Shown here piece after piece: positions 12,656 to 43,673 of a DNA stretch of 64,000 bases. The stretch is from Eledone cirrhosa. Its lineage: Eukaryota; Mollusca; Cephalopoda; Octopoda; Eledonidae. The notes beneath the pieces were generated by a model. That model saw nothing but the letters and a program-made list of their open reading frames with translations. It was not told the DNA's origin and ran no database searches. Positions within the stretch are counted from its first letter, which is position 1; each line of letters starts with the position of its first letter. A program made the position numbers and the translations under genes. Where the stretch lies: positions 70,561,475-70,625,474 of the forward strand of contig OZ024744.1 of the NCBI GenBank assembly GCA_964016885.1. Reading direction: 5' to 3'.

Positions 12656-12726
12656 TGTTTTATCTGATGAAAACACAAATATTATTGCATGATGATATTT
12701 GTTTTTGAAATGCGCATAATAAAATA
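12656..12726 (+). ncRNA. hammerhead ribozyme (type I), HHR-A
   Basis: Core CTGATGA at 12664-12670 and GAAA at 12707-12710. Stem I pairs 12656-12663 with 12719-12726 (8 pairs, one G-U). Stem II pairs 12671-12682 with 12695-12706 (11 of 12 pairs, C-U mismatch at position 4). Stem III is the self-complementary ATGCGCAT at 12710-12717, and the cleavage position follows A 12718. A flank motif GCACTCTACAG...CTGGAGTATA lies upstream at 12549-12577. The mate hairpin arm seen in other copies is missing here. Confidence 0.8.
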
Positions 12727-12789
12727 CATGGAACTCTTTTAACCATCTTTTGTTCTTATATATTATATATATATATATATATATATATA

Positions 12790-13003
12790 GTAATAATAAT
12801 AAATTTGAAGACTAAAATCGAAAGAGGGCTCGATAAGGATAAATATATATCAAATATATAAGAACCGTAGAGCAAATATTTATTAAAATAACAGATTAAA
12901 GTTTAAGCAAAGAATCGCTGCTTTCACCCTTAACGGGATCTTCTGAAGATCTCGTTAAGGGTGAAAGCACCGATTCTTTGCTTAAACTTTAATCTGTTAT
13001 TTT
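12790..13003. repeat. R1 repeat, head-to-head palindromic pair
   Basis: A full R1 copy on the plus strand (12790-12944) meets a partial minus-strand copy (12945-13003) at GATCTTCTGAAGATC. The arms differ by a few bases. Confidence 0.8.
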
Positions 13004-13527
13004 AATATATATATATAGATAGATAGATAGATTTCTTTATTTACCATAAAGGCATAAAAAGAAGGGACAAATACAAAGGGGGAGTTTACATATAATCGAG
13101 TAAAAAGGGTGTAACATGAAAATAATCGAAAATAACCTCAAAAGGGAGGGGACGTGATGGGGGTTGCACACACCCCCGAAAAAGTGTGCAATCCTTTGCC
13201 CGGGGAGCACATGGAGAAGGTGCTCCCCTCTCCTTTACTTCTTTACCTACAGGATGGTATACAGAGAAGGCCCATTTACACGAGCCATTCTCGCCACTAT
13301 CACCCACCTTTCATAAAACTGCCTGTGGCCAAGCACCTCTCTCTCCATTCTTATCCTTCTTCCGAAGTGATATCGGAAGAAGTAGACCAGACTATGGCCA
13401 GAGAGGAAGTTGCCTGACCTCAGACCTTTCAATCGTGTCCACCAAACAACCTCTTTCAACATGGCTATTACGCACAGAAAAACCGCCTTTGCTTCCTTTG
13501 TGAAGAGGGGAGGCGGTTTGATTGTCA

Positions 13528-16500
13528 TCACGGACTCGGCGCCACCCGCGACAGCAGTTGTTCGGCGTAGCCCCACAGATCAGCCACGCCCGGACATTGC
13601 ACCAATGCGTGCGCTACGGTTTCTTCGTGACGCACGTATCTAGGGCAAATCTCTTTTGAGGGATCCCTGCCCGGGCGCCCGTGTCTGTAGAGCCTCTCTC
13701 GAACGGGTAGAGCCCCTCGGTAGCACTGCCAGGCCAGTGACTTCTGGAAGTTGTCCATTGGTCCTGGGCCGAAAGTCCTACCGAACAGGCTGGCCAGTTC
13801 GTCTTCTTCCATGTCCAGCGACTCTCCAAGGGTGTCATCGCCCCTGCTAGCCACCAGCCCTCTATAGAATGATGAGGTGGATTCTCCACCGATGGCCTGG
13901 CCCGCTTGCCAGAGAGCCCTGAGCGCCTGAGCACACTCAGTGTGCCAGTCTCCCAGTTTTCCGGATCTTTGCTTGACCCAGGACTGTAGCTCGGTGAGTG
14001 AGACGAGTCTCGGAAAGGCTCGTTTCACGAACGGAGCCCACACCGGTTGACCAGTGAGGAATACCTGTAGGTGCCGTAGCCTTAATGCGTGCCTACGCAT
14101 CATCAACCACGGCATCCCCAGCCCTCCTTTCGAAGGTTGTTGGCAGCAGATGGATCTTCTCACCATAGGAGGACGCTTCTTCCAAAGAAATTGGAAGAGC
14201 ATGCGTTCCATGGTGGTGAGTGTTTCCTTAGGGCAAGGCACGACAGTCAGGCGGTAGTAAGTGACGGACGCTATGTAAATGTTCACCACCTCCGCCCGGC
14301 CTTTTAGGGACAGCTTACACTTGGCCCATTTCTGGGTTAGTGCAAACACCTTGTTCGTAACCTCGTTCCAGTTCTTTTCCACCTGGAGGTCCGGTCCAAA
14401 CCAGACCCCAAGCAACTTTATCGGGCCCTCCGTCCAGTGTCCGACGACACCGTCAGGAGGCATCGGTTTGCCTCTCCACGTTCCGAGTTGCAGCCCGATG
14501 GATTTTTCCCGGTTCAGTTTCGCTCCTGACAACCTTTCGTACTCCTCCAGTAAGGTACCGATCGCCTCGATCTCCGAGTCGGTTGATACCATTACTGTTA
14601 CGTCATCGGCGTAGGCCGACACCGCTTTGCTCAATCCTGGTTCCAGGGGGATACCCTGCAACAACTCCAACTTCCTCAGTAAAGGCTCGAGAGTCAATAC
14701 GTACAGAAGGGAGGAGAGAGGGCACCCCTGTCGAATGGATCGTGTGATTTCGAACGGCTTCGAAAGGTAGCCGTTCACCTTGATCCTAGAACAGATGTGG
14801 TTGCTATGTAGGGCAGTGATCCAGCCTCTGAAAACAGGACCGAACCCAGCCGCCGCTAGCACCGCATCCAGGTAACCATGGTCGACCCTATCGAAGGCCT
14901 TAGACTGATCCAAGTTGATCAGGACCCCACCGAAGCCGGGTTTGTTGCCAACCCTCTCTATGATGTATCGCATGAGGTGGAGGTTATCGTGAATGGACCT
15001 GGATGGGATAGCACATGTCTGCGCATCTCCCACCAGGCCACCCACGACAAGCGCCAACCTCTTTGCTAACACCTTGGCCAAAATCTTTAACTCTGTGTTT
15101 AGCAGGGTTATGGGCCGAAAATTATTTATACTATCCCCCTTGTTCTCGTCCTTCCTCACCAGCGTGACTGCGCCCTTGGCTACAGAACAAGGAATTCTCC
15201 CGTTCTGCTGCCAATTGCAGTAGACCGCTTCGAGGAGTTCGGAGAAGAAGACCGGCATTGCTAAATAAAGTTCGTAAGGTATACCATCGAGACCTGGAGA
15301 TTTGCGTCTGCTGCATTGGCTCAGCGCATCTCCGATCTCATCAGCCGATATTGGTCCCTCGCAGGACTCTGCCTCTTCGTTCGAGAGACGCGGCAGGCCG
15401 TCGAGGTATGGACCAAAATCCACACCCCGGCCCGGACCCTCGCCTCCCCCGAACAATCGGGCAAAGTGCTTTTGAAAGGCCTCGCACATCTGCTTAGGCT
15501 CCCGGATCACTCGTCCATCTTCGTCTTGCAACGACCGGATGGTGGATCGATTTCCACTCTTAGCTTCTGTCACGCGGGCCCATCCAACGGCTTTGGCCCC
15601 CTCATTACCTAGAGCACGTATTTTACTTCGAATGACGCAGCCTTCGTGCTTTGCATCGAAAAACTGGTTCAAGGCCGTCCTCGATGCCAGCACTCTGGCC
15701 ACATCTTCGCTCTTGATTGCCTCTTCTAATTTACCTGTTAATTCTTTCTCGTTTCTATTCCTATCGGCAGCTAACATCTTGCTATAACTTATTGATTCTG
15801 TTCTAATCTCTCTTTTGAGAGATGCCCACCATCGGTTGTTGACGATTGCACCCGTCAACCTCTCCTTAACTAATCTGCTAATCCGGTTTCTGTAAGTCTC
15901 TTTTGCCGGTAAAGACAAATTAAGTTTCCAGTAACCGGGACCCTGTCTATGTGTTTTCTCGAGATTGACCACGCAGGTCACTAATTTGTGATCCGTGTAG
16001 CCAACCGTGCGCATTTCTGGACAGCTTAATATGTCCCTATCCTTACTTCTAACTAAGAATCTATCTAAGTACGATCTAGATTGACCACTGTGGTTTCTCC
16101 AAGTCCAGGTAGGCACAGTTGGAAAATCTAGTCGATATCTATCGACCAAGTTAAAACGGTCGAGTAACCCATTGAGGCTGTTACACCCCCCTCTATTAGG
16201 ACATGCTCCTGCATAGTCCCAACGTGCATCCAGGATGTCATTCCAATCCCCCGCTAGAAGCAGGGAACGCGACGTTCCCAGAAAAGTCTCCAAACGCTGG
16301 AAGAAGTCGGGCCGTTCAGCTCCGAAAGGGGAGTAGACGGCGACCAGTCTCAAGGCCGCACTTTCACTACTGCCAACGTCTAGCACCAACAAACGACCCT
16401 CCGGGTCCGAGTGCACAACCTGTACGGCAAGACCCAGGTGTTTTTGCAGCAGTACGACAACCCCACCCCCACCTCCAGGTTGACAGAGAGATGCATGCAC

Positions 16501-43188: not shown

Positions 43189-43242
43189 ACTGCTATATAT
43201 ATTTCGGTGACAGCCATTATTGGCGTGACCTCTTCAGGCAGT
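43189..43242 (-). ncRNA. hammerhead ribozyme, HHR-G (CTGAAGA type)
   Basis: Minus strand: CTGAAGA (43231-43237) and GAAA (43202-43205). Stem I has 5 pairs GACTGC/GCAGT (43238-43242 with 43189-43193). Stem II is GGTCAC/GTCACC with C-C at position 4. Stem III is (AT)4 (43195-43202). Not in a visible foldback. Confidence 0.78.
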
Positions 43243-43436
43243 CCGAATCTGCATACTGAGGTGTCGGTAAACAACCAACATATACTAAAAAAAATATATA
43301 TATAATATATATATATATGTAGAAGGTGAGTAGAACAATAAAACTATGCATATATCAGATAAGTAGCACTCAACAGTTGGTAGAACTGGAGTATATATTA
43401 AAGAAGAAATTAAAAGATGGTTAAAGAAGTTCCATA

Positions 43437-43506
43437 TATTTTATTATGCGTATTTCGAAAACAACATCATCCTGGGACAAAAATTGTGTTCTCATCAGAT
43501 AAAATA
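43437..43506 (-). ncRNA. hammerhead ribozyme, HHR-H minus
   Basis: CTGATGA (43492-43498) and GAAA (43453-43456). Stem I has 8 pairs (43499-43506 with 43437-43444). Stem II opens GAACACAA/TTGTTTTC with C-U at position 4. Stem III is ATACGCAT with one A-C. Confidence 0.8.
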
Positions 43507-43603
43507 AGGTAACATGATATGAGGCCTAAAAACAGTTGTCAACATATGTAGGCTTTGCACTTTCCTGTTCACAAGTGTTTTTAGGCCTCATATCATGTTA
43601 CCT

Positions 43604-43673
43604 TATTTTATCTGATGAGAACACAATTTTTGTCCCAGGATGATGTTGTTTTTGAAATGCACATAATAAAATA
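43604..43673 (+). ncRNA. hammerhead ribozyme, HHR-H plus
   Basis: CTGATGA 43612-43618 and GAAA 43654-43657. Stem I 43604-43611 with 43666-43673, 8 perfect pairs. Stem II GAACACAA/TTGTTTTT with C-U at position 4. Stem III is ATGCACAT. Confidence 0.82.

Follow-up and report, generated by a model that had tools for sequence, protein, structure and literature searches.

Predicted type I hammerhead ribozymes with a kept stem II mismatch in one-tailed fold-back elements of Eledone cirrhosa

A stretch of 64,000 nucleotides from the octopod Eledone cirrhosa (GenBank assembly GCA_964016885.1, contig OZ024744.1, positions 70,561,475 to 70,625,474 of the forward strand), referred to below as the window and numbered from its first letter, carries hammerhead ribozyme sequences arranged in small mirror-image elements. 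In most of these elements, the hammerheads lie in fold-back arms, a short tail is found on one side, and a microsatellite lies opposite; in four, both arms contain an outward-pointing hammerhead core. The elements probably represent a single divergent type I hammerhead family housed in short retroelements that lack an open reading frame (ORF) and are built like the inverted pseudo long terminal repeats (pseudo-LTRs, pLTRs) at the ends of Penelope elements. The initial annotation of this DNA described the ribozymes and overlooked their setting, that is, the fold-back arms, the one-sided tail and the microsatellite flanks. The wider result concerns the mirror-image, one-tailed elements in which the hammerheads reside.

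Hammerheads were located with a descriptor requiring the motifs CTGANGA and GAAA, three pairs in stem II, two or more in stem III, four or more in stem I, and U followed by a base other than G. Nine were detected in 64 kb, on both strands, and none in 100 dinucleotide shuffles of the window made in 2-kb blocks; all nine hammerheads named in the initial annotation are thereby recovered. A background set of 240 IMG/VR loci (2.08 Mb), picked for containing hammerhead-like words, gave five matches with a slightly laxer descriptor, none of which has, at position 4 of stem II, the C opposite C or U that is considered below. A chance origin of the hammerheads is rejected on the basis of the shuffles and this background. 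The nine intact copies possess the type I core (CUGANGA...GAAA...UH) and three helices, and are open at stem I. Three damaged copies bring the total to 12, which form about five sequence groups (A to E).

The copies fall into eight small elements, designated A1, A2, B, B2, C1, C2, D and E. The descriptor scan found intact hammerheads in A1 (12654–12728, plus strand; predicted cleavage after 12718), the right arm of B (22531–22597, plus), C1 (23092–23160, minus), C2 (28059–28125, minus), the left and right arms of E (34357–34442, minus, and 36290–36375, plus), D (43184–43247, minus) and both arms of A2 (43435–43508, minus, with an intact core and a stem III of two pairs, and 43602–43675, plus). 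The D hammerhead is solitary, and no second arm was found for it by BLAST. Damaged copies are situated in the left arm of B (22413–22479, minus), where the cleavage site has lost 3 nt, and in both arms of B2. The left B2 copy (23772–23841, minus; alignment and forced fold) has a broken stem I, and the right one (23890–23959, plus; alignment) carries GAAT in place of GAAA. The initial annotation had correctly listed the two B2 copies, at 23790 (minus) and 23892 (plus), as damaged; the damaged B copy is absent from its list.

A covariance search of the kind proposed in that annotation was run on the window. A custom model, R1, built from the 12 copies, scores each of them at 55 bits or more (A1, for instance, at 64.5 bits), which holds by construction since they are its own training sequences. 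The next match (23.8 bits, E 0.004) lies at 28075–28160 on the plus strand, over the truncated right arm of C2, and the remaining matches in the window all have E above 0.05. Matches below 24 bits were set aside; one of them, at 39287–39373 (minus), resembles the 3′ half only. The Rfam models (release 15) gave no hammerhead at gathering score in the whole window, none among 76 matches with E of 5 or less in 12000–44200, and none in two short stretches covering the right A2 hammerhead and D. Weak Rfam matches to C/D small nucleolar RNAs, below the cut-off, depend on the word UGAUGA, and this identity was rejected because no box D (CUGA) is seen near the 3′ end. Two strict patterns applied to viral contigs and one applied to genome contigs returned no outside relatives, which says little, as the collections hold viral and prokaryotic contigs. 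A full-text literature search found no paper in which a hammerhead ribozyme appears together with a cephalopod.

Position 4 of stem II is kept as a mismatch within the window, as the initial annotation had noticed. In the alignment, every one of the 12 copies has C as its 5′ base, facing C on the 3′ side in seven copies and U in the other five; among the nine intact copies, C faces U in five and C in four. Co-variation was evaluated on the 11 distinct sequences present among the 12 copies. Five stem II pairs, three adjoining the core (18-65, 19-64, 20-63) and two just past position 4 (22-61, 23-60), are formed in 55 of 55 cells, and each of them has changed on both sides somewhere, which bears out the earlier claim that the flanking pairs co-vary. 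Position 4 (21-62) is formed in none of the 11 sequences, and two pairs further out are each formed in nine. The co-variation score of the whole structure is 0.520 versus 0.275 ± 0.030 for shuffled alignments; it was reached in none of 500 shuffles, and sliding the pairing partners drops it to 0.224 or less. Of five co-variation measures, four were likewise reached in none of the 500 shuffles. The hammerhead fold is supported by co-variation. Sequence and co-variation together support the view that these are well-formed hammerheads, and self-cleavage itself is predicted.

The 12 copies are related and hence are not independent samples, so these data show that the mismatch was kept while its neighbours changed in concert, and do not show its use. 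Possibly, it is a functional element: the C.C or C.U mismatch could constitute a small internal loop docking against an internal loop of stem I. Hammerheads in general are described as bringing stems I and II into contact through their internal or terminal loops (PMC3088659). In forced folds, stem I is interrupted and resumes past an internal loop in A1, A2, the right copy of B, C2 and E. The spacing of this interruption varies (after 4, 8 or 10 pairs), and the contact between stems I and II is without co-variation support. Inheritance of a functionless mismatch by descent is rather unlikely, while still deserving serious weight. All copies are related, the C at 10.4 is invariant, and the change from C to U on the opposite side is a simple transition, as such inheritance would have it; however, the pairs on either side of position 4 have changed on both strands, and a C-G pair at this position occurs in none of the 11 distinct sequences, with identities between groups down to 70%. 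No mismatch at stem II position 4 is described in those portions of the hammerhead literature that were surveyed, which did not cover the main papers on Penelope hammerheads.

Stem I of the nine intact copies has 4 to 10 pairs, as claimed initially. The stem III region is 8 nt long in eight of the nine and 10 nt in C2, and it is fully self-complementary in seven, G-U pairs counted. The initial annotation had read such stems as essentially loopless; the usual length and, for seven copies, the self-complementarity stand, and the absence of a loop was overstated, since 8 nt in cis could form two pairs and a four-base loop, or alternatively a longer duplex between two molecules. A stem III of two pairs with a tetraloop is described as similar to invertebrate hammerheads (PMC7229834), and most invertebrate type I hammerheads are said to cleave as monomers (PMC7761336). 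Judged by these forms, activity as dimers would be possible and would not be required.

Long fold-back arms are present in five elements. The A2 palindrome (43392–43718) consists of arms 43392–43544 and 43566–43718 with outward-pointing hammerheads. The palindromes of B and B2 occupy 22367–22646 and 23726–24005 (BLAST), and that of C2 occupies 28017–28205; the right arm of the latter, by eye, starts part-way through stem II and is missing the hammerhead's 5′ half. The arms of E (34317–34945 and 35777–36415) are 96.7% identical. A vestigial second arm is retained in A1 (12575–12610, pairing with 12737–12771 at 86%) and in C1 (23212–23241, pairing with 23053–23082 at 93%), so that arms or vestiges are found by BLAST in seven of the eight elements. 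In four elements (A2, B, B2 and E) both arms contain a hammerhead core facing outward from the centre. Two arms of one element resemble each other more closely than do arms of different elements, with only a marginal difference in group C. Within elements, BLAST identity is 96% in A2, 96% in B, 90% in B2, 87% in C2 and 97% in E. Counted over aligned bases only, which omits gaps of up to 41 columns and thus flatters the comparison, the values become 97, 100, 95, 94 and 98%, against 70–86% between elements (92% for C1 and C2). The idea that the palindromes are an assembly artefact of fold-back reads is argued against by arms that differ by several percent and by indels, and by the one-sided tail.

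The tail, recognized by a pattern search for TACTCCAG..GAGTGCT, stands on one side of the arm in six elements: A1 (12548–12576, minus), B (22651–22679, plus), C1 (23249–23272, plus), B2 (23692–23719, minus), C2 (28213–28237, plus) and A2 (43365–43393, minus). The pattern has no seventh match anywhere in the window; E shows, by eye, a near-match to the tail start alone (TACTCCG, 34306–34312, minus). In the six elements compared, the non-tail end departs from the tail-end sequence about 4–9 nt before TACTCC. The flank on the non-tail side is simple sequence, TA-rich in A2, B2, C1 and C2, mixed GATA/TA in B and TG in E. A (TA) tract lies no more than 80 nt downstream of the cleavage site in six of the 12 hammerheads (A1, the right copies of A2 and B2, C1, C2 and D) versus 10.7% of random positions. 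In C1, about 280 bp separate a (TA)n tract from a TA-rich one. C2 is split by an LTR retrotransposon (about 28255–32474), beyond which, by eye, a stretch resembling the end of C1 resumes and is followed by (TA)n. The centres of B and B2 are common and lie in the same orientation (score 42, versus 15 in reverse and a shuffle maximum of 17), and the tails of these two elements nevertheless lie on opposite sides.

This layout, with inverted pLTR-like arms head to head (arms or vestiges in seven of eight elements) and a tail at one end (six of eight), resembles Penelope inserts, which are described as head-to-head inverted pLTRs with an optional tail at one pLTR (PMC3846280). According to the account of the one tested Penelope protein, A+T-rich targets are preferred, and copying starts in a stem-loop matching the genomic tail (PMC11167929). 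For the elements described here, a Penelope-type reverse transcriptase supplied in trans would use RNA ending in the tail as template and copy it into targets that are A+T-rich or (TA)n, and the arms would become alike during rounds of copying. The common centre of B and B2 implies that their palindrome is presumably older than both elements, and the likeness of the arms within B and within B2 suggests that copying evens out the differences between arms. A transcript spanning the entire A2 palindrome is computed to form a rod of −229 kcal/mol (z −36). We infer for the last steps that a whole-element transcript would form a rod burying the hammerhead, so that only transcripts starting near the centre and running outward would expose it; such a transcript could cut itself and free an RNA with a 5′-OH and a 3′ tail.

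Several points weigh against this interpretation. None of the elements is associated with a reverse transcriptase or endonuclease frame, and no ORF of 120 aa or more that would combine reverse transcriptase and GIY-YIG lies between their repeats. The Penelope-type pieces of the window (4273–6285, minus, and possibly 46952, plus) have no nearby hammerhead or tail match, and Pfam gave no family for them. All nine intact copies have a stem III region of 8–10 nt, and published Penelope hammerheads are usually without stem III. In vitro, hammerhead cleavage was reported to be unneeded for insertion of the one tested Penelope, for which no reads ending at the cleavage site were reported either (PMC11167929). 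The hammerhead is not the structure preferred by energy models: seven copies fold at z −1.71 to +0.68, and in all 12 the forced hammerhead fold is less stable than the free minimum. This weighs against a strong claim of activity. The fifth co-variation measure, which counts further pair types, was reached in 106 of 500 shuffles, and the shared C at position 4 may partly reflect common descent. Two intact hammerheads are kept only in A2 and E. The contrast between arms and elements is slight in group C (by BLAST, 87% for the C2 arms versus 84% for C1 and C2). Any target-site duplication would be hidden by the flanks, which are mostly (TA)n. Finally, palindromes free of hammerheads are common elsewhere in the window, so that a tendency to fold back may be widespread in this genome.

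Other origins were weighed against the same evidence. The elements could be plain decayed Penelope-like copies, pLTR pairs whose coding part has been lost, and would then form no separate ORF-less family. Inverted pLTR pairs, tails and solo pLTRs are reported from the rotifer Adineta vaga (PMC3846280), and Penelope-type reading frames occur in the same window. We nevertheless regard this origin as unlikely: seven of eight elements have a common layout of arm or vestige with tail and no reverse transcriptase frame, C1 fits between its TA tracts in the short span given above, and the centre common to B and B2 is not expected from separate interior losses.

A still more doubtful origin is that of metazoan non-LTR retrozymes, tandem units which are cut by hammerheads into RNA circles. 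Type I hammerheads, a unit of a few hundred bp and a low G+C content would fit, and mussel retrozyme hammerheads are likewise described as lacking most of the usual loop contacts (PMC7229834; PMC7761336). Against it, nowhere among the 12 copies in the window do like copies follow one another in direct tandem at unit spacing. The nearest same-strand copies of one group, in B and B2, are about 1.3 kb apart with C1 between them, and the close same-strand neighbours (C1 with the left copy of B2, D with the left copy of A2) belong to different groups. Besides, with one hammerhead per strand per element the unit cannot be excised. The elements are not tandem retrozymes; they are ORF-less and resemble Penelope inverted pseudo-LTRs, so that, of the two affiliations named in the initial annotation, the Penelope-like one agrees with the layout and the retrozyme one does not. 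Very improbable are miniature inverted-repeat DNA transposons with a TA target, in which the hammerheads would be incidental: fold-back arms and (TA)n flanks recall them, yet the two ends differ, as the tail occupies a single end, and at that end the arms do not reach the terminus.

Compared with known systems, the hammerheads of Penelope-like elements and Terminons are alike in the type I core, the location in terminal repeats and the existence of dispersed noncoding copies (PMC7761336; PMC6431247). In contrast, they are described as usually lacking stem III and standing in tandem (PMC7761336), whereas here stem III has 8–10 nt, a long stem II keeps the C.Y mismatch, the hammerheads face outward in fold-backs, and no reverse transcriptase frame is present. 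A stem II mismatch may also occur in the hammerheads of the primary papers of 2014 and 2017, which this comparison did not cover. Metazoan non-LTR retrozymes, which occur in invertebrates including a mussel, are alike in having type I hammerheads within small noncoding repeats a few hundred bp long; they form direct tandems yielding RNA circles, whereas in the window like copies are inverted and no unit-spaced tandem is seen. The pLTR inserts of A. vaga are alike in the head-to-head pLTRs, the short one-sided tail and the palindromes at junctions (PMC3846280), and differ in framing a reverse transcriptase/endonuclease reading frame; the word hammerhead is absent from the main text of that paper. 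Axolotl HHR_Amex2, a type I hammerhead carried by repeats, also keeps a mismatch in stem II, as presented in PMC7229834; there the mismatch is U.U at the base of stem II and the repeats are direct, unlike the C.C or C.U at position 4 found here. Head-to-head hammerhead palindromes are not described in the parts of the literature surveyed, among which the main Penelope-hammerhead papers were not covered.

The elements thus look like a variant of known ribozyme-carrying mobile elements with a kept stem II mismatch. A bolder proposal, to which we give a low probability, is a palindromic retroelement that lacks an ORF and has one hammerhead per strand. RNA from either strand could serve as its template, and transcript length would act as the switch of its ribozyme, which the full rod would bury and a transcript starting at the centre would free; the kept C.Y internal loop in stem II would be a docking element absent from the hammerhead literature surveyed. 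The co-oriented centres and opposite tails of B and B2, a single pair of elements, are as templating from two strands predicts.

The window contains other repeats, and its simple and interspersed repeats as a whole seem to be of a coleoid cephalopod type. Broken Penelope-type reading frames lie at 4273–5118 and 5896–6285 (minus) and at 46952–47341 (plus), the latter two judged by eye only. Among the relatives of the 4273–5118 piece, one protein bears the name GIY-YIG domain-containing and another has PF01541 (GIY-YIG); few relatives are named by species, these being from Elysia marginata at about 40% identity. A second fold-back family of about 100 bp, ACCCCGACGGC..GAGCTCAAGCCGTTTCGACGGCT, lies within (TA)n and has no hammerhead (6346–6523, 32578–32767, 38837–39021, and a half copy at 23348–23411); one of its copies is located just upstream of a minus-strand Penelope-like reading frame. 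Long palindromes with arms 85–95% alike and no intact hammerhead occupy 8456–8796, 32937–33486, 37265–37982 and 39096–39441, and a remnant resembling the 3′ half of a B-type hammerhead with its arm (39230–39318) is found within another palindrome. A long interspersed nuclear element (LINE) at 13531–16701 (minus) has endonuclease and reverse transcriptase domains in an open frame of 1057 aa; a second copy within 18892–21120 is 98.7% alike over 2.2 kb. The LTR retrotransposon is present in two copies, 89% alike (3–3687 and 28749–32481), of which the second splits C2; its LTRs are 92% alike, and TAAAC/TAGAC may represent a 5-bp duplication. A tRNA-like sequence at 42541–42598 (plus), at 31.2 bits just over the Rfam cut-off and not found by ARAGORN, is perhaps the head of a short interspersed nuclear element.

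The role of hammerheads in Penelope-type elements has been termed a mystery (PMC7761336). Since all 12 copies escape the Rfam models at gathering score, families of this kind may be undercounted. The kept mismatch, next to pairs that co-vary, allows a precise and cheap mutation test of docking between stems I and II. Elements this small, with little more than ribozymes, a tail and inverted arms, would reveal the parts needed for movement, and would allow the role of the ribozyme to be tested cleanly.

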